DNA of 23,318 nt from a virus. The position numbers were made by a program, and so were the translations under genes. The DNA is taken from the IMG/VR virus record IMGVR_UViG_3300042988_000340, positions 1-23,318 of that record. One strand, written 5' to 3'. The notes beneath the pieces are model-generated. The model saw nothing but the letters and a program-made list of their open reading frames with translations, did not search any database and had not been told where the DNA came from. Positions 2,811 through 11,018 of the stretch are shown here, in pieces (the first letter of the stretch is position 1; every line of letters begins with the position of its first letter).

Positions 2811-2917
2811 GCAGGCTTCGGCCAGCATCAAAGCCTACTGCGTGATGCATTTGCCTTCCTTGAGTGGCATCGCGAATCATCCGGCGTTACTCGCACCAAC
2901 TGGAGAGCATTAAGAAC

Positions 2918-4903
2918 ATGAGCTGGGAAGTACCTGCCGGCGGTAGCGGATCTGTCGGGTTCACGAACACTGGGCTGGCCTACGACGGCACAAACCTGTT
3001 GATCGGAGACTTCACGAATGGTCGGATCGTCAAGACCACACTGACTGGCGCATACGTCGGCGAGATCGTTTTGGCTTCGGCGCCAGCGACCAGCGTGCAG
3101 GGCGTCGCATACGACAGCAGCGATGGCACCTATTGGGTGTGCCATGCTCACGCCACTGCTGGAACTATCCGCCAGTACAACTCAAGCGGGACGCTGCTCA
3201 ACACGATCACACCAGGGGTCGGGACGCAGGGGCCTAACGGCTGCTTCTACGACGCGGCAAACGACCGCATTCTGACTGTCTGGCCAGGCTTCCCTAACGT
3301 GATTCGTGGCTATTCGTGCGCCACGTTGTCCACGACGCCGGTCGAGACTATCACTCTATCCGGCTTGAGCGGCGGTTACGTCGACGGCATTGCCCTAGAC
3401 CCTTCCACGCCTACCACCGATCTGTGGGTTACGGTGGATGGCGCCACGGAAGCCGAGCCCGCTTTTTTGTCGAAGGCAAGCAGGTCCACGGGCGCGGCCT
3501 CGTCGACCGTCGTTATGCCATCGTCTTGCGAAAGCATCGCCTTCGTCGGCAGCAGCTTGTACAGTTGCCACGACCAAGGGTTCCATCTGAGTGTGACAAA
3601 CGGCAACCGGGTATGGAAGCTGGACCCGACTACCGGGGAGGAGGCCTACGGGTTTTCTGTCCGCGCCAAGGGGGGCAGCTTCACGCTGTTGACTTCCACC
3701 GGGAACCAGGCCGTGTCCGGTCTGGGGTTCGTTCCCAAAGTTGTCTTTGTGTTTGGCATGTTCAATGGGGCGGGCATCGCATACGGGGACGCCTTTGGGG
3801 TCGCTGACAGCCAGACGCGCCAGTGGGCGATGTCGAGCCGGAACAATGACAACGTCACCCCGACGCAGTGCGACAAGTCGTGGGATTCCACGCTGTTCTT
3901 CCACTGTACTGATGGCCTGGGCGCCGTAGTGTGCCAGGCGGCGTTCGGCTCAGTCACCCACGACGGGTTTGCTCTCAAGGTCACAAACGCGGCGCTCGCG
4001 ACCAGGCGGCTGCACTACCTGGCCCTGGCGGGCGATGATGTTGAGGCCTACGTGAGCAAATTCGACCTGGCGACAGGTACAGGAAACCAGGCGGTGACCG
4101 GCGTCCCGTTCACCCCGAAGTGCGTGCTCATGTCGGCCAACCTGAGCAACACCACCGAAGGCATTTCCGCTATTGAGTCTCGCTTCGCACTTGGTGCCAT
4201 GACGTCAGCAGCGCAGTGGTGCGCAACATCCTACGCGCTTGACAACTTGGCCGCCGGGGACGAGCAGGGTGTGGGGCGCACTGACGCGGCCATCGTTCGG
4301 ATCTCGGACGTGTTCACGACCACCGCGCTGGCCGCCCGCACTTCCCTGGATGCGAACGGGTTCACTGTCAACAAGAGCACGGCACCTGGTGGGTCCATTC
4401 GCCTCGGATACGTTGCTCTGGGAGGCCCGGCCTTGTACGCAGTGGGTGCGTTCAACCAACCGACCAGCACGGGTGACCAGGCAATCACAGGCGTTGGGTT
4501 CAGGCCACTGGCCGAATTGTTCCTATCCGCCGGCCGAGTGGCCAGCACGACCCCGACAGGCGGGTCGCGGACTATGCTGGGTGCCGCCGTGTCCTCTACT
4601 GATCGACGCAGCTACGCGGCGACTGCTCAAGACGCGGTAAACCCGACCAACTCGGCCCGTGACATGGACGAGACGGCGTGCTTGATCGCCATCAGCGACG
4701 GCGGCACGCCGACACGCCTGGCAACTGCCGGGTTCGTGTCCCAAGACTCGGATGGGTTCACGGTGAACTGGTCCGCAGCGGACGCCACAGCAAGACAAAA
4801 CTTTTATCTGGCAGTGGGGGCGCCCCCACCAACGGACGCATCGGGCCGGCTATCTGAGCGTCGAAACCAGTCTGGTATCAACTTTTTCGGTGCAAGGAGA
4901 TAA
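2918..4903 (+). CDS. Putative phage fibre/structural protein with propeller-like N-terminus and three tandem repeats
   Basis: The 661-residue protein is probably a virion surface or adhesion protein. Residues 1-250 contain short repeated units of the GLAYDGTNLLIGDF type (also GVAYDSSDGTYWV, GIALDPSTPTTDLWV), which resemble NHL/WD-like beta-propeller blades. Residues from about 245 on hold three related units of about 128 residues, each carrying a TGNQAVTGVxFxPK motif at 260-274, 387-401 and 517-531, followed by an aspartate- and glycine-rich DGF.V block. The start at 2918 (MSWEVPAG) is preferred over a GTG at 2864; neither has a strong ribosome binding site. Base composition is lower in GC than flanking genes: 32 of 60 G/C in 3541-3600 against 46 of 60 in 17101-17160. 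The place between terminase and portal is unusual for a fibre gene. No exact family is recognised. Confidence 0.68.
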   Translation: MSWEVPAGGSGSVGFTNTGLAYDGTNLLIGDFTNGRIVKTTLTGAYVGEIVLASAPATSVQGVAYDSSDGTYWVCHAHATAGTIRQYNSSGTLLNTITPGVGTQGPNGCFYDAANDRILTVWPGFPNVIRGYSCATLSTTPVETITLSGLSGGYVDGIALDPSTPTTDLWVTVDGATEAEPAFLSKASRSTGAASSTVVMPSSCESIAFVGSSLYSCHDQGFHLSVTNGNRVWKLDPTTGEEAYGFSVRAKGGSFTLLTSTGNQAVSGLGFVPKVVFVFGMFNGAGIAYGDAFGVADSQTRQWAMSSRNNDNVTPTQCDKSWDSTLFFHCTDGLGAVVCQAAFGSVTHDGFALKVTNAALATRRLHYLALAGDDVEAYVSKFDLATGTGNQAVTGVPFTPKCVLMSANLSNTTEGISAIESRFALGAMTSAAQWCATSYALDNLAAGDEQGVGRTDAAIVRISDVFTTTALAARTSLDANGFTVNKSTAPGGSIRLGYVALGGPALYAVGAFNQPTSTGDQAITGVGFRPLAELFLSAGRVASTTPTGGSRTMLGAAVSSTDRRSYAATAQDAVNPTNSARDMDETACLIAISDGGTPTRLATAGFVSQDSDGFTVNWSAADATARQNFYLAVGAPPPTDASGRLSERRNQSGINFFGARR

Positions 4904-4905
4904 GC

Positions 4906-5892
4906 ATGGCTACTTACAACACGCCTAAACGCGGGGTTGCTTTCAAGATGTACGTGGGCCTGGTGGACCAGGCCGACACGCGCCTGCTGAAGGCCAATCC
5001 AACTATTGCGTCAGGCGATTTCCAGATCAGCAAGGACGGTGGGGCCTTTGCCAATCTGGCCACCTTGCCCAGCGCGAACCCGGCAAGCAGTCGCGCGGTG
5101 ATGATTGACCTGTCGGCCAGCGAGATGACAGCTGACAACATCGTGATCCAGTGCGTCGACGCATCGGGCGCAGAGTGGTGCGACCAGATCATCAACTTGC
5201 AGACCACCGCCAGCCAGCTCGACGACCTGGCAACGGCGGCAAACCTGGCAACGCTCGCCGGCTACGTTGACACCGAGGTCGCTGCAATCGTCACGGCCAC
5301 CACTGCGTCGGCCATTCGGACGGCCCTGGGCCTTGCTTCGGCCAACCTGGACACGCAGATCGGAACGCTGGCAACAGCGGCCAACCTGGCTACGGCGGTG
5401 GGCTACATCGACACCGAGGTCGCCGCCATCAAAGCCAAGACCGATAACCTGCCAGCGGCGCCGGCCGCCGTAGGCGACATCCCATCCGCTGCCACGATCG
5501 CAGACGCAGTCTGGGATGAGGCCCTGAGCGGTCATGCCACCAGTGGCACGACAGGCGCGGCGCTGTCCGCGGCGTCAGGTGGAGGTAGTGGGGGCCTCGA
5601 CGCTGCTGGCGTGCGAGCCGCCATCGGGCTGGCCTCGGCCAACCTGGACACGCAACTGGCCGCCTTGCCGACCGCAGCCGAAAACGCCGATGCCGTGTGG
5701 GACGAGGCTGTCGACGGCTCGACCACGGCGCGCGAGTCCATGCGTCTGCACAACAGCGCCCTGGGCGGCAAGGCCAGCGGCATGGGCTCCACCACCGCCG
5801 TGTTCCGCGACCTGGCCGACTCCAAGGCCCGCATCACTGCCACCGTGGACGCCGACGGCAACCGCACCGCAATCACGCGAGATCTGACCTGA
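4906..5892 (+). CDS. Putative phage fibre stalk / structural protein with VWDEA modules
   Basis: The 328-residue protein is likely a structural stalk or adaptor. Residues 1-100 form a beta-rich domain starting GVAFKMYVGLVDQ and ending near DQIINLQT, similar in pattern to N-terminal domains of baseplate or fibre-attachment proteins. The remainder is an Ala-rich, probably helical or trimeric shaft with duplicated units: LATAANLAT...GYxDTEVAAI twice, GLASANLDTQ twice and ADAVWDEA twice. Such VWDEA units are frequent in phage stalk proteins. A strong ribosome binding site (AAGGAGA, 4894-4900) sits 5 bases before the ATG, inside the end of the upstream gene. The gene ends in TGATG, coupling it to the next small gene. 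Function is inferred from composition and position; it might be a capsid or neck appendage rather than a tail fibre. Confidence 0.7.
   Translation: MATYNTPKRGVAFKMYVGLVDQADTRLLKANPTIASGDFQISKDGGAFANLATLPSANPASSRAVMIDLSASEMTADNIVIQCVDASGAEWCDQIINLQTTASQLDDLATAANLATLAGYVDTEVAAIVTATTASAIRTALGLASANLDTQIGTLATAANLATAVGYIDTEVAAIKAKTDNLPAAPAAVGDIPSAATIADAVWDEALSGHATSGTTGAALSAASGGGSGGLDAAGVRAAIGLASANLDTQLAALPTAAENADAVWDEAVDGSTTARESMRLHNSALGGKASGMGSTTAVFRDLADSKARITATVDADGNRTAITRDLT
5227..5430 (+). repeat. Internal duplicated shaft module in the stalk gene
   Basis: Bases 5227-5289 and 5368-5430 encode two near-identical 21-residue units (beginning LATAANLAT and ending DTEVAAI). Further copies of neighbouring motifs are GLASANLDTQ (near 5326 and 5626) and ADAVWDEA (near 5503 and 5686). 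The pattern indicates growth of the shaft by in-frame duplication. Confidence 0.75.
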
Positions 5893-6146
5893 TGTTTGCT
5901 AGGCGGTACTTCCCCAGCCGCCACTTTGCCGCCCGGTTCTTTGGCGACGGCGGCAGCAGCTCGTCCAGTGTCCCTGGGGCGCAATTCTTCGGGCGTCGTT
6001 ACTTTGGCGTCCGCGTCTTCGGATCTGCATATTACGGTCCTGGAGAGGCGACCACCTCTGCCACGTTTACTGTTGATAGCAAAGTCCGTCTGGGCCGCAA
6101 GATCGCAAAGTCGCCAGATACCCGTCTCGGAAGGACAACCCCATGA
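5892..6146 (+). CDS. Small Arg/aromatic-rich phage protein (MFARRYF type)
   Basis: This 84-residue protein starts MFARRYFPSRHFAARFFG and later repeats the theme as FFGRRYFGVRVFG and YYGPG. That gives closely spaced Arg-(Arg)-Tyr/Phe-Phe-(Gly/Pro) units separated by a poly-Ser stretch. Small proteins with this RYF/RFFG pattern are commonly seen among phage structural genes, but I know of no established function. It is coupled to its neighbours on both sides: TGATG with the stalk gene and ATGA with the next gene. That arrangement strongly supports translation despite the small size. The aromatic/Arg motifs could pack against other virion proteins or membranes; this is speculation. Confidence 0.7.
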   Translation: MFARRYFPSRHFAARFFGDGGSSSSSVPGAQFFGRRYFGVRVFGSAYYGPGEATTSATFTVDSKVRLGRKIAKSPDTRLGRTTP

Positions 6147-6694
6147 TCGACAAGCTCACCGCTGGCGACACGCTCAATTTTCTGACCTCTGGCGGCGACT
6201 ATCCAGCCGGCTCCGGGTGGTCGCTGGTGTACAAGCTGATCCCTCGCACCGCGGGTCCTTCGGTCATCTCTTTCTCCAGCTCGGCCGAGGGTGATGACCA
6301 CCGTGTAACTGTGGCCAGCACCACCACCGCGAACTGGACAGCGGGAACCTACAGCTGGGCGGTCTACGCTTCAAGAAGTGGCGAGCGCCACACGCTGCAA
6401 ACGGGCACGACCCAGATCATGGCTGACCCTGGCGCGGTGTCCACACTGGACACCCGTTCTCCTGCGGCGATCGCGCTCGAGGCAGCTGACGCCGCCCTGG
6501 CCGCCTACGGTGCCAAAGCCTACCTGCATTCCTACGAGATCGCCGGCCGCAGCCAGCGCTTCCAGGATCCGGCCACCTTCATGGCCTGGCGCGACAAGCT
6601 GAAGGCTGAGGTCCGACGCGAAGAGGCCGCCGCAGACATCGCCGCTGGCCGCCGGCCCCGTAACCAGATCCTTGCAAGGTTCAACACACGATGA
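6143..6694 (+). CDS. Two-part phage structural protein with gpW-like C-terminus
   Basis: The 183-residue protein appears to have two parts. Residues 1-95 look like an immunoglobulin-like beta domain (AGDTLNFLTSGGDYPAGSGW, then TANWTAGTYSWAVYAS and GERHTLQTG). Residues 105-183 are helical and end with SYEIAGRSQRF, MAWRDKLKAEVRREEAAAD and ILARF. This tail resembles head-tail joining proteins of the gpW type, where a GRS(V/L) strand is followed by an Arg/Glu-rich helix. In lambda, gpW lies just before the portal gene, and this gene also ends directly before portal with an ATGA overlap. A connector or adaptor role linking the fibre cassette to the head-tail junction is plausible but unproven. Confidence 0.62.
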   Translation: MIDKLTAGDTLNFLTSGGDYPAGSGWSLVYKLIPRTAGPSVISFSSSAEGDDHRVTVASTTTANWTAGTYSWAVYASRSGERHTLQTGTTQIMADPGAVSTLDTRSPAAIALEAADAALAAYGAKAYLHSYEIAGRSQRFQDPATFMAWRDKLKAEVRREEAAADIAAGRRPRNQILARFNTR

Positions 6695-8331
6695 ACACCG
6701 CCGTTGTCCCCTTCTACGACGCCAAGCGCGTCGCGCAAAAGCGCAGCGTGGTTCTGGAGAGCTGGCTCAGCCAGCAGCCAGGAAATGCATTCCGCCGCGC
6801 CGGCATCCAGCCGCCGATGCGGGCTCGGCGCAACTACTACGCCGCCCAAGTCAACCGCCTCACTGCCGGGTGGTCCGCCACCACGAGCAGCGCAAACGCC
6901 GACATCTTCCGCAGCCTCGACGCGCTGCGGGCCCGCAGCCGGGTGCTCGCCCAGAATGACGAGTACGTCAAGAAGTGGCTGCAGATGGTCTCCACCAACA
7001 TGGTGGGGCCGTTCGGCTTCCGGTTCCAGGCCCGCGTGTATGACCCGCCAACCAGCGCCAAGAGCGCCCCCAAGCCCGACAAGCTGGCCAACGACGCCCT
7101 GGAGAAAGCCTGGTCCGAATGGTGCAAGGTTGCGGACGTCACAGGCCGCAACCACTTCACCATGTTGTGCCAGATCATGGCACGCACGGCCGGGCGTGAT
7201 GGCGAGATCATGGCGCGATTTGTGCGCGGTAAGGAGGCCGGCAACCCCTTCGGCTTGGCCCTGCAGCTGCTGGACATCAACCGGCTGGACACCAACCTGA
7301 ACCGCCCCGAGGGCAACGGCGTCACGCAGATCCGCATGGGCGTCGAGATGAACCGCTGGGGCCGGCCGACGCACTACTGGCTGCGCACCCGCAATCCAGG
7401 TGACAACTACAGCGTGGCCCAGGGGCAGAGCCAGGCGGTGCACGAGCGTGTTCCCGCTGAGGACATCATCCACGCCTTCATCAGCGATGACCCCGAGCAG
7501 GCCCGGGGCGTGCCGTGGGCCCACGCGGCCATGGAGCGCCTCAACAACCGCGGTGCCTTCGAGCACGCGGCCATCATTGCGGCGCGTGTCGGCGCCAGCA
7601 AGATGGGGTTCTTCACCACGCCAGACGGCAATGCGGAGCCGGCATCCACTGGCGTCGAATCGGATGACGGCAGCGATGACGGCCAGCTGGTCACGGAAGC
7701 CGATCCGGGCACCTTCGACACCCTGCCCGAGGGCTACGACTTCAAGGCCTTCGACCCCGCCTACCCGAGCGACATGTTCGCGGACTTCATCAAGGCCAAC
7801 CTGCGCGGCACCGCCAGCGGCCTGGGCGTGGCCTACCACAGCCTGGCCAACGACCTGGAGGGCGTCAACTTCAGCAGCATCCGCAGCGGCACGCTGGAGG
7901 AGCGCGACTGCTGGATGGTCCTGCAGGAGTGGTTCGCCCAGTCCGTGCTCGAGCGCATCTTTCCCCAGTTCCTCGACGCGGCGCTCACGTTCGGCCTGGC
8001 AGTCATGCCCAACGGCAGCAGCCTGAGCGTGGCCAAGCGCGAGAAGTTCTCGGCGCATCAGTGGCAGGGGCGCCGCTGGGAGTGGGTGGATCCGAAGAAG
8101 GACATCGACGCCGATCTGACAGCTCTCGACGGCGGTATCAAGTCGCCGCAGATGATCGCCGCCAAGCTCGGCGTGGACTACGAAGACGTGCTGGCCGAGA
8201 TCAAGGCCGCCCAGGACATGCGTGATGCCATGGGCATCGTGCTTCCTGCCCGTGGTCAGCAACAGCCGGCGCAAGCTCCTGCGGCGGCGGATGTACCCGA
8301 TGCCAACGCGGACGATCCGGAAGCTAACTAG
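6691..8331 (+). CDS. Phage portal protein, lambda family
   Basis: This forms the dodecameric portal ring at the unique capsid vertex, the docking site for terminase and the channel for DNA. The 546-residue protein matches the lambda gpB-type portal pattern: an early RARSRVLAQNDEYVKKWLQM segment, NMVGPFGFRFQ near residues 107-117, LLDINRLDTN, a HAFISDDPEQARGVPWAHAAM block, and late GLGVAYHSLANDLEGVNFSSIRSG. The C-terminal segment carries QWQGRRWEWVDPKKDIDA and an Ala/Pro-rich tail. Start and upstream stop overlap as ATGA. Stop TAG is followed at once by an in-frame TAA that belongs to the second copy of the intergenic repeat. Unlike lambda gpB, no ClpP-type protease gene follows; an HK97-type protease-capsid fusion does. 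Confidence 0.96.
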   Translation: MNTAVVPFYDAKRVAQKRSVVLESWLSQQPGNAFRRAGIQPPMRARRNYYAAQVNRLTAGWSATTSSANADIFRSLDALRARSRVLAQNDEYVKKWLQMVSTNMVGPFGFRFQARVYDPPTSAKSAPKPDKLANDALEKAWSEWCKVADVTGRNHFTMLCQIMARTAGRDGEIMARFVRGKEAGNPFGLALQLLDINRLDTNLNRPEGNGVTQIRMGVEMNRWGRPTHYWLRTRNPGDNYSVAQGQSQAVHERVPAEDIIHAFISDDPEQARGVPWAHAAMERLNNRGAFEHAAIIAARVGASKMGFFTTPDGNAEPASTGVESDDGSDDGQLVTEADPGTFDTLPEGYDFKAFDPAYPSDMFADFIKANLRGTASGLGVAYHSLANDLEGVNFSSIRSGTLEERDCWMVLQEWFAQSVLERIFPQFLDAALTFGLAVMPNGSSLSVAKREKFSAHQWQGRRWEWVDPKKDIDADLTALDGGIKSPQMIAAKLGVDYEDVLAEIKAAQDMRDAMGIVLPARGQQQPAQAPAAADVPDANADDPEAN

Positions 8332-8356
8332 TAACATTTTTCCCCCTGACTTTTCC
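8331..8356 (+). repeat. Intergenic direct repeat, copy 2
   Basis: GTAACATTTTTCCCCCTGA (8331-8349) is identical to 2784-2802 and is followed by CTTTTCC (8350-8356), shared with copy 1 apart from one base. Its TAA is in frame with the portal gene immediately after the portal stop TAG. It lies in the 52-base gap before the protease-capsid gene. The T5-C5 tract is strikingly unlike the surrounding GC-rich coding sequence. Confidence 0.85.
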
Positions 8357-8383
8357 TTTCCATGCGCCCGACCATCAGGGCTC

Positions 8384-10255
8384 ATGGACACCACGCAGTC
8401 ACAACCCAACGCCAGTGCACTGAAGCCCGGTTCCCGCCTGCAGCGCGGGATGGCTTTCACGCGCGAGGCCATCAACGTCGAGGCCCGCACCGTCGAGCTG
8501 GCCTTCGCAAGCGAAACACCCTATGAGCGCTGGTGGGGCGTCGAGATCCTCGACTGCGCCCCGAAGTCCATGCGCCTGCAACGCATCAAGAGCGGCGCCC
8601 CGCTCCTGTGCGACCACAACACCCGAGACCAGATCGGAGTCATCGAGTCGGTACAGATCGGCGCGGACAAGGTTGCCCGCGCTGTGGTGCGCTTCGGGAG
8701 AAGCGCGCGTGCCGAGGAATGGTTCCAGGACGTGGTCGACGGCATCCGCAGCTCGGTCTCTGTGGGTTACGAGATCCACAGCGCCAAGCTGGTCGAGACC
8801 AAGGACGGCGTCGACACGTACCGCGTCGACGACTGGGAACCCTACGAAGTCAGCATCGTCTCCGTTCCCGCCGACACCTCGGTCGGCGTCGGCCGCGCTG
8901 CCGGCGAGGAATCCCCCGTCCTGCCCCTGAACACCCCCGCAAACACCCAACGCTCCAAGGAGTCCCCTACCATGCAAACCGCACCCGAAGCCACGCCGGC
9001 GCCCGTCGCCCCCGCCATCCAGTCGCAAGACACCGCCGCCCGCGACGCCGCGCAGCGCAAGCTGACTGCCGAGCTGATCGCCATCGGCGATGCGCACGAG
9101 CGCTTCAACGGCCGCCAGCTCGCCCGCGAAGCCATCGAGCGCGGCGACGTGAACACCGAAGCCCTGCGCTCGCACATCATGAACGCCATGACGGCCGCGC
9201 AGAAGGGCACCACGCCCGCGGCCAACCTCGACCTGAGCCGCGGCGAAGTGCAGCGCTTCAGCGTGCTGAAGGCGATCCGCGCCCTGGTCGACAAGGACTG
9301 GTCGGGCGCCGGCTTCGAGCGCGAGTGCCACCAGGAGATCCTGAAGCGCACCGGCCTGAGCGCCGCGGTGCACGGTGGCTTCTTTGTGCCGGTCGATGTC
9401 CAAAAGCGCGACCTGACGGTCGGCACCCCGACTGCCGGCGGCAACCTGGTGGGCACCAACCTGCAGCCGCAGAGCTTCATCGACCTGCTGCGCGCCCGCA
9501 GCGTGTGCGCTGATCTGGGCATGACCATGCTGACCGGCCTGGTGGGCAACGTCACAATCCCGAAGCTCACCGGTGCGGCCACGGCTTATTGGCTGGCCAA
9601 CGAGGCGGCGGCCATCACCGAGAGCCAGCAGACAATCGGCCAGCTCGCGCTGTCACCCAAAACCATTGGCGTCTACACCGAGCTCTCCCGCCTGCTGATG
9701 ATGCAGTCGACCCCGTCGGCCGAGGCGCTGGTAATGAACGACTTTGCCAAGCAGATGGCCCTCGGGATCGACCTGGCGGTGTTGGAAGGTTCCGGCTCCT
9801 CTGGCCAGCCCACCGGCATCTCGCTGACGGCCGGTATCGGATCGGTGACCGGCACCTCGCTCGCTCTGGCCGGTGTCACCGAGTTTCAGACCGACGTTGC
9901 CGCTGGCAATGCCCTGGATGTGGGCAGCGCTTACGTCACCACCCCGACGGTGGCTGGCCTGCTGCTGCAGCGCGCCCGGTTCTCCAGCACCGACAGCCGC
10001 ACGCTGTGGGAAGGCAACGTCCTGGAGGGCACCGTCATGGGCTTCCGTGGCCGCACGACCACGCAGGTGACAGCTGCATCCATGACCTTCGGCGATTTCG
10101 CCCAGGTCGTGCTGGCCGAATGGGGCATGCTCGAGATTGCGCTCAACCCGTACGCGAACTTCGGTGCAGCGATTTCTGGCATCCGCGCCATCCAGTCCGT
10201 CGACGTCGGTATCCGCCAGGCCGCCGCCTTCAGCCGGGCCACGTCCATCACCTGA
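8384..10255 (+). CDS. Fused HK97-type prohead protease and major capsid protein
   Basis: The 623-residue protein joins two functions usually carried by separate genes. Residues 20-172 form an S78-type prohead protease with candidate catalytic His78 (CDHN), Ser126 (SSVSVGY) and an acidic third residue in WEPYEVSIVSVPAD (E155). Residues 173-200 are a Pro-rich linker. Residues 200-320 form a charged helical scaffold-like delta domain (RKLTAELIAIGDAHERFNGR). The rest is an HK97-fold capsid protein, with GGNLVGTNLQPQSFIDLLR, AYWLANEAAAITES, a probable P-domain helix around FAKQMALGIDLAVLEGSG, and a C-terminal DVGIRQAAAF. The ATG at 8384 has AGGG at 8377-8380. The frame is open back to 8222 inside the portal gene, but that extension would cross the intergenic repeat and has no support. 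The protease should remove the scaffold domain during maturation. Confidence 0.9.
   Translation: MDTTQSQPNASALKPGSRLQRGMAFTREAINVEARTVELAFASETPYERWWGVEILDCAPKSMRLQRIKSGAPLLCDHNTRDQIGVIESVQIGADKVARAVVRFGRSARAEEWFQDVVDGIRSSVSVGYEIHSAKLVETKDGVDTYRVDDWEPYEVSIVSVPADTSVGVGRAAGEESPVLPLNTPANTQRSKESPTMQTAPEATPAPVAPAIQSQDTAARDAAQRKLTAELIAIGDAHERFNGRQLAREAIERGDVNTEALRSHIMNAMTAAQKGTTPAANLDLSRGEVQRFSVLKAIRALVDKDWSGAGFERECHQEILKRTGLSAAVHGGFFVPVDVQKRDLTVGTPTAGGNLVGTNLQPQSFIDLLRARSVCADLGMTMLTGLVGNVTIPKLTGAATAYWLANEAAAITESQQTIGQLALSPKTIGVYTELSRLLMMQSTPSAEALVMNDFAKQMALGIDLAVLEGSGSSGQPTGISLTAGIGSVTGTSLALAGVTEFQTDVAAGNALDVGSAYVTTPTVAGLLLQRARFSSTDSRTLWEGNVLEGTVMGFRGRTTTQVTAASMTFGDFAQVVLAEWGMLEIALNPYANFGAAISGIRAIQSVDVGIRQAAAFSRATSIT
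8957..8974 (+). promoter_or_regulatory. Internal ribosome binding site and start inside the protease-capsid gene
   Basis: AAGGAG at 8957-8962 lies 9 bases before an in-frame ATG at 8972 (codon 197). It falls exactly in the linker between protease and scaffold-capsid domains. It is a stronger ribosome binding site than the one at 8384, as expected if far more capsid protein than protease must be made. Confidence 0.7.
8972..10255 (+). CDS. Major capsid protein precursor from internal in-frame start
   Basis: The internal start would yield a 427-residue protein beginning MQTAPEATPAP. It holds the scaffold-like delta domain (about 125 residues) and the HK97-fold shell domain. HK97's own capsid precursor is 385 residues with a delta domain of about 100, so this product has the right plan and size. 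The strategy parallels lambda, where the scaffold Nu3 starts inside the protease gene, although there the capsid is a separate gene. The full-length fusion would then be a minor species that brings protease into the prohead. Production of both forms is inferred from the strong AAGGAG site and its location at the domain border; it has not been shown. Confidence 0.68.
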   Translation: MQTAPEATPAPVAPAIQSQDTAARDAAQRKLTAELIAIGDAHERFNGRQLAREAIERGDVNTEALRSHIMNAMTAAQKGTTPAANLDLSRGEVQRFSVLKAIRALVDKDWSGAGFERECHQEILKRTGLSAAVHGGFFVPVDVQKRDLTVGTPTAGGNLVGTNLQPQSFIDLLRARSVCADLGMTMLTGLVGNVTIPKLTGAATAYWLANEAAAITESQQTIGQLALSPKTIGVYTELSRLLMMQSTPSAEALVMNDFAKQMALGIDLAVLEGSGSSGQPTGISLTAGIGSVTGTSLALAGVTEFQTDVAAGNALDVGSAYVTTPTVAGLLLQRARFSSTDSRTLWEGNVLEGTVMGFRGRTTTQVTAASMTFGDFAQVVLAEWGMLEIALNPYANFGAAISGIRAIQSVDVGIRQAAAFSRATSIT

Positions 10256-10278
10256 TAACCCCCCGCCCGTAGGTAGAC

Positions 10279-10307
10279 CCCCGCGCGGCCATGAGCGCCG
10301 CGCGGGG
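10279..10307 (+). terminator. Perfect 11-bp stem-loop after the capsid gene (attenuator or mRNA end)
   Basis: CCCCGCGCGGC (10279-10289) and GCCGCGCGGGG (10297-10307) are perfect complements around a 7-base loop. It follows the capsid stop by about 23 bases. There is no T-tract, so full intrinsic termination is unlikely; partial attenuation or protection of the abundant capsid mRNA from 3' decay is more likely. The 92-base gap (10256-10347) contains nothing else but the ribosome binding site of the next gene. Confidence 0.65.
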
Positions 10308-10347
10308 CACCTGAAGGCAGGCAGGTACATCACCCAAGGACACAGCG

Positions 10348-10653
10348 ATGGTTCAAACCCTCAAACCCCTCGACAACGGCCTGGCCACCTACGTGGTGCT
10401 GCGCGCCATCTGCATCGGTGGCGACCGTGTCGAGCCAGGTGCTTCCATCCAGCTCACCAAGGTGCAGGGCACCGAGCTGGCCGCAGCCGCCAAGGTCGCT
10501 GCCGATGGCACGCCAGCCGCCAAGGCTGCGCAGGACGCCGCGAAGGCAGCCGCCAAGGCCGCCAAAGCTGCTGCCGCGGCCAAGCCAGCTGAAAAGCCGG
10601 CAGACCCGATTCCCGAAACCGCCACCACCTCGCAGGAGGGTCCCGCATCATGA
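10348..10653 (+). CDS. Small head-region protein with Ala/Lys-rich tail (gpFI-position)
   Basis: The 101-residue product lies directly downstream of the capsid gene, where lambda has the packaging accessory gene FI. Residues 1-50 look like a small beta domain (YVVLRAICIGGDRVEPGASIQLTKVQ) that ends ELAAAAKVAADG. Residues 55-85 are an Ala/Lys repeat resembling histone H1 tails (KAAAKAAKAAAAAK), then a Pro/Glu segment. The ATG at 10348 has AAGGA at 10336-10340, 7 bases away. The gene ends in an ATGA overlap with the next gene. A capsid accessory or DNA-contacting role is inferred from position and tail composition only; sequence similarity to FI itself is not evident. Confidence 0.62.
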   Translation: MVQTLKPLDNGLATYVVLRAICIGGDRVEPGASIQLTKVQGTELAAAAKVAADGTPAAKAAQDAAKAAAKAAKAAAAAKPAEKPADPIPETATTSQEGPAS

Positions 10654-11018
10654 GCCAGTTCAACTTTGCCGGAAACGCCACCGTCGTCAACATCTTGACG
10701 CCGGTGTCTGCGGCCAACACCGCAGCCGCTACCAGCTCGGGCGTCGACCTGATCGACTACGACGGCCCGGTCATCGTCACCCAGCACAAGGGCGCCGGCA
10801 CCGGCACGCTCGACGGCAAGCTTCAGGACAGCGCCGACAACTCCAGCTTCGCGGATGTGTCCGGCCTCGCCTACACGCAGGAAACGACTGGCGCCGGCAT
10901 CCAGAAGCTGGTGGTCAACCCCAAAAGCGTGCGCCGCTACATCAAGTACGTTGGCACCATCGGCACCGGCCCGCAGATCGTGGGCGTGTCGATGCAGGGC
11001 GTCAAGAAGACGATCTGA
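10650..11018 (+). CDS. Putative capsid decoration / head-associated beta-sandwich protein
   Basis: The 122-residue protein carries motifs that recur in small proteins encoded just after phage capsid genes: GVDLIDYDGPVIVTQHKGAG, then LDGKLQDSADNSSFADVSG, then RRYIKYVGTIGTGPQIVGVS. Alternating strands and the jelly-roll-like spacing suggest a beta sandwich. A capsid-decorating or head-stabilising protein is the most likely role, but the family has no function I can name with certainty. The start overlaps the previous stop as ATGA, so translation is probably coupled. The stop is followed by only two bases before the next ATG. Confidence 0.6.
   Translation: MSQFNFAGNATVVNILTPVSAANTAAATSSGVDLIDYDGPVIVTQHKGAGTGTLDGKLQDSADNSSFADVSGLAYTQETTGAGIQKLVVNPKSVRRYIKYVGTIGTGPQIVGVSMQGVKKTI

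Follow-up and report, generated by a model that had tools for sequence, protein, structure and literature searches.

Gene layout and a possible internal start

The DNA analysed here, referred to as the window, is a 23.3-kb (23,318-nt) IMG/VR virus record. ORF analysis identified one uninterrupted frame of 623 codons at 8384-10255 encoding a protease followed by a capsid, and the Pfam domains along this single frame bore out a sequence-only reading of the locus, which had taken the prohead protease and the HK97-fold capsid to be one gene (Table 1). Peptidase_S78 (PF04586) scored above its cut-off (30.4 bits vs 21), and the match to Phage_capsid (PF05065) spanned residues 352-617. PHROG 617, a 'major head protein' family of S78 protease and HK97 capsid fusions, matched residues 20-622 of the 623 (E = 1.7e-135). 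The capsid part matched the solved capsid of phage R4C (8gta) with E = 1.3e-32, and Foldseek on the same part retrieved R4C, RcGTA and HK97 proheads with a probability of 1.00. Residues H78 and S126 were invariant in an alignment of 14 homologues and are candidate catalytic residues. An assembly artefact joining two genes was ruled out, as 177 homologous ORFs were also fused.

Table 1. Features of the protease-capsid gene; coordinates are positions in the window, residues are those of the full-length product
Feature	Coordinates	Strand	Basis or remark
Protease-capsid fusion gene, product 1 (full-length)	8384..10255	+	First start ATG 8384; 623 codons
Peptidase S78 (prohead protease) domain, residues 72-165	8597..8878	+	Pfam; predicted fold 36-158
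Disordered hypervariable linker, residues 161-213	8864..9022	+	pLDDT < 50; alignment
Internal Shine-Dalgarno (SD) AAGGAG	8957..8962	+	Sequence; anti-SD pairing; near relatives
Internal start codon ATG	8972..8974	+	GTG in L002, L003, L006, L032
Predicted product 2: capsid precursor, 427 aa (MQTAPEA...), delta-like scaffold and capsid without protease	8972..10255	+	Suggested by the conserved start; compare the 439-aa gene of L162
Helical delta-like scaffold segment, residues 214-323	9023..9352	+	Model; putative role after the HK97 gp5 delta domain
Probable maturation cleavage region, residues 343-362	9410..9469	+	Disordered in model; 8gta chain start aligns with 352
HK97-fold capsid domain, residues 352-623	9437..10252	+	PF05065; 8gta; Foldseek

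An AlphaFold model was generated from 14 sequences, and since its mean pLDDT was 70 and its pTM 0.49, domain boundaries alone were taken from it. The model gave a beta-rich protease domain, the linker, a helical segment, a disordered stretch and then the capsid fold, in that order. The sequence-only reading had also placed an AAGGAG 9 bases ahead of an in-frame ATG at the domain border, and these positions were verified: the ATG is residue 197, which lies inside the disordered linker between the protease domain and the helical segment. The linker was hypervariable, with no invariant residue from R171 to G254 in the 14-sequence alignment, and both its residues and its length varied freely among homologues.

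Among the 99 internal in-frame ATGs in the long genes of the window, 3 paired with the anti-SD at -8 kcal/mol or more strongly, and the ATGs at 10037 and 7915 paired better than that at 8972. Because these two other internal ATGs have the better SD pairing, the window sequence taken singly is suggestive of an internal start and not conclusive. ATG 10037 is capsid codon 552 and ATG 7915 lies within the portal gene, both being in-frame ATGs with a strong SD; the position of ATG 10037 was not conserved in a scan along the homologous capsid genes. No sigma-70-like site, which would have offered an internal promoter as an alternative, was found in 6600-10700, although this is a weak test.

Elsewhere in the window, a stretch of about 3.4 kb (2864-6294), with the terminase large subunit on one side and the head-tail joining/portal genes on the other, contained predicted genes of 679, 328 and 132 aa, an unusual place for cargo. 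None of the three matched Pfam or PHROG at E 0.001, and the 679-aa gene had no match among 50,697 phage records and none in PADLOC.

Conservation of the border start among homologues

Since the single sequence was not clearly beyond chance, homologues were collected for comparison. They were drawn from 54 phage records in which cover was 80% or more, IMG/VR loci and two bacterial genomes, and the 177 fused ORFs were reduced to 111 representatives at <80% identity. An in-frame ATG or GTG was present at query residues 180-216 in every representative (111/111), and it was preceded by a properly spaced SD of 4 nt or longer in 103 of the 111; the count was 105/111 when the stretch was widened to 172-250 and TTG was allowed. 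The sequence-only reading had named homologues without the ribosome binding site or the ATG as evidence against itself, and this comparison did not refute it. Along the gene, an ATG behind an SD of 4 nt or longer occurred at residues 180-199 in 78% of genes, no other bin of 20 residues exceeded 26%, and the peak was seen in the coding frame only.

For a null expectation, each gene was recoded synonymously using its own codons, leaving the protein and its Met residues unchanged. Among the 111 representatives, 96 ATG starts had an SD of 4 nt or longer, compared to 58.6+-3.6 expected, and 56 had one of 5 nt or longer, compared to 33.4+-3.5. The excess was kept on thinning to <60% identity (61 vs 38.6 expected) and <50% (39 vs 25.0), and in clusters at <45% identity (23/25 observed vs 14.4+-1.6 expected); at <40%, with 11 sequences only, the observed 10 vs 7.2 expected was not beyond the null. 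Other in-frame ATGs in the same genes showed no SD excess (222 vs 240.5+-9.1 expected), indicating that the recoding null is calibrated, and a chance motif was ruled out by these nulls. The recurrence of the border site across homologues is far beyond chance. Its anti-SD energy had a median of -6.2 kcal/mol, and the remaining internal ATGs one of -2.4 (p about 1e-48). The third residue after the border start was D or E in 50% of cases and in 10% after other Met residues, which resembles an ordinary capsid N-terminus.

All six AAGGAG bases were common to the window and four of its five near relatives, the fifth having AAGGAA. In the near relatives L002, L003, L006 and L032 the AAGGAG was constant while the flanking bases differed, and the start was a GTG one codon away from the ATG, with Met replaced by Val and a start codon kept. 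Members that kept the ATG with a weak or absent SD included some cyanophage and Murka-type phages; L046, L092, L126 and L149 had little or no SD, and the border SD energy in Murka (L040) was -3.5 kcal/mol.

These substitutions and counts bear on whether the motif could be conserved for the protein it encodes. The fusion might be the sole product, at 1:1, with linker self-cleavage stripping the protease from every subunit and K/E-E-x-x-M serving as the cleavage site. Prohead proteases do cut assembly proteins, a cut in the linker would be expected anyway, and the SD bases code for a conserved K-E or E-E. Nevertheless, the SD excess in the family of the window exceeds the amino-acid requirement, the ATG/GTG swaps exchange Met for Val, the linker around the site is free to change, and the identical motif follows a stop codon in an unfused relative (L162, described below); we consider this explanation unlikely. 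The recoding results indicate that selection acts on the SD and start at the codon level, beyond the protein sequence, in the family of the window.

In L162 (1000-3361), protease and capsid were unfused: the ORF at the protease position ended with TAA, and a 439-aa delta-capsid gene opened a few bases later with TAAGGAG-ATTCCATC-ATG. This is plausibly the ancestral arrangement, and the fused genes look like the L162 layout minus the stop codon, with the start retained. Such an ancestor could have left the internal start behind as a relic whose role was lost after fusion. We regard this as very improbable, as the site is retained at <45% identity within an otherwise unconserved linker, and neutral linker DNA would have let a leftover site decay. 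In another relative, L025 (2938-4815), the same protease and linker start were joined to a different PF05065 capsid, and the protease-capsid border may be a point of module exchange. Separately, about 170-230 extra N-terminal residues were annotated ahead of the protease domain in cyanophage and roseophage members (L043 775-3285, L044 799-3249, L051 919-3303 and L053 778-3288).

Two probable products from one gene

Conservation of the site makes it very probable that the internal start works, and that both the fusion and a capsid precursor are made from one gene. In the explanation that we favour, initiation at 8384 would give a protease-delta-capsid fusion, and initiation at 8972, behind the AAGGAG in the linker, would give delta-capsid alone, the equivalent of HK97 gp5. 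As both products share the delta and capsid parts, that is, the assembly domains, the fusion could enter the shell with the protease inside, co-assembling as a minority subunit that takes its own protease along into the prohead. This protease would then cleave in the linker and also near residue 350, where delta meets capsid, to leave a single mature capsid protein. Ribosome use of the second start, capsid-alone as the major product, co-assembly and the cleavage sites are all steps that we infer, and we judge the explanation as a whole to be likely.

It had further been proposed that start strength would yield little fusion and much capsid. The window itself agreed with this proposal: the internal start paired with the anti-SD at -8.0 kcal/mol and the first start at -3.0, and the internal start was less structured, with an unpaired probability of 0.63 compared to 0.49. 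The family did not follow suit: of 109 genes, only 67 had an internal start stronger than the best candidate for the first start (medians -6.2 vs -5.8 kcal/mol). Moreover, HK97 gp5 (-3.7 kcal/mol) and lambda E (-4.1 kcal/mol) are capsid genes with a weak SD, and SD pairing alone therefore does not predict capsid yield. The proposal is thus borne out only in part, and control of the protease:capsid ratio by SD strength would be plausible for the window.

That the two starts are similar in SD energy across the family, and that yield cannot be read from sequence, also allows for an internal start that works in regulation, in ribosome traffic or for a minor product, and not in bulk capsid supply. 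This seems improbable to us, given that the complete delta-capsid precursor is the only long in-frame product and that the internal start of the window is much the better of the two by pairing and accessibility.

A protease on every capsid subunit would be hard to reconcile with HK97-type heads, where protease and capsid have separate genes, and a second start would resolve this simply. Two-start expression would also predict where the capsid precursor truly begins in a widespread phage family annotated as a 'major capsid protein' of 600-700 aa, and would correct estimates of capsid size and stoichiometry based on annotated length. Protease dosing would become testable through a few base changes in a cultured and structurally solved phage such as R4C.

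Comparison with known systems

The border site was compared with other phage systems. The PHROG 617 phages VP882, phiHAP-1, ep3, Arya, PPpW-3, R4C and RcCronus have the same architecture from end to end, and are at most about 40% identical to the window. In their records the gene is given as a single long 'major capsid protein', with no second start. The solved virion chain of R4C (8gta) starts at residue 362 of the 629-aa fusion product, in which the border Met is residue 189. This agrees with the removal of everything ahead of the capsid fold, although internal initiation is not thereby demonstrated. The T = 7 head of R4C has 415 capsid copies, and the paper describing it contains nothing on the protease or the precursor N-terminus (PMC10276861). 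A viral scan with the R4C query gave no matches, and the paper on a phiHAP-1-like prophage of V. campbellii held no virion protein data. XM1 was dropped as a comparison, its capsid gene being short and separate.

HK97 gp4/gp5 resembles the window in that a prohead protease of HK97 type precedes a capsid whose N-terminal delta segment is cleaved off. Protease and capsid are two genes in HK97, unlike the single ORF of the window with its two proposed starts. The contrast with lambda drawn in the sequence-only reading did not hold up in the form given, as lambda C/Nu3 works in the same way: by means of an SD-preceded in-frame start located where protease meets scaffold, the gene yields a protease-scaffold fusion and the downstream product alone. 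The lambda gene stops with the scaffold, the capsid having a gene of its own (E), whereas in the window the scaffold simply runs on into the capsid, so that the downstream product would include it. The proteases also differ, lambda C belonging to the S49 family and the protease of the window to S78. Within lambda gene C (L350 1819-3138), the strongest internal SD-ATG was at codon 309, and GenBank nests nu3 in C from codon 239. Later work on the lambda procapsid reportedly puts Nu3 at the later of these starts.

Protease, scaffold and capsid also share one gene in the Gifsy-2 'tripartite' gene, in NF045540 and in gp5 of Pseudomonas phage MD8, with a ClpP-like protease and a PF25209 capsid in place of the S78 and PF05065 pair of the window. 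Pfam and NCBIfam detected no ClpP-like domain in the window protein, which is thus not of the NF045540/Gifsy-2 type. The Gifsy-2 fusion was reportedly described by Effantin et al. in 2010. A protease-capsid fusion of the ClpP type has already been published (PMC8508860), and the MD8 paper describes the fusion and leaves an internal start unmentioned. An SD and ATG just past the ClpP domain were present in 20/20 representatives of this type, against a recoding null of 8.9+-2.1.

The S78-like protease/gpT-like capsid fusions of NF045541 have a related protease half, a single gene and a border SD with ATG, and differ in capsid family. The window matched NF045541 (scaf_prot_MCP2) with 165.3 bits over residues 30-279 only, below the cut-off of 525. 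A border SD and ATG were found in 43/45 of these fusions (recoding null 33.9+-2.4); the border SD energy was no better than the null and the sequences are close relatives, so that the case for codon-level selection is weak in this type. In both the ClpP and the NF045541 types, the border was the only near-universal SD-preceded ATG.

Protease-capsid fusions are already known (NF045540, NF045541, PHROG 617 and 4523, Gifsy-2 and MD8), as is the logic of nested starts, from lambda C/Nu3. The searchable literature yielded no account of internal initiation in protease-capsid fusions, but it misses most subscription papers, so that this absence is no proof. Taken across these systems, we lean slightly towards a general rule in which the single-gene protease-capsid fusions of tailed phages, with unrelated proteases (S78 or ClpP) and different capsid families, would all depend on a conserved internal start. 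The fusion would be a minority subunit that delivers the protease, and the dose would be encoded in translation, not in separate genes.
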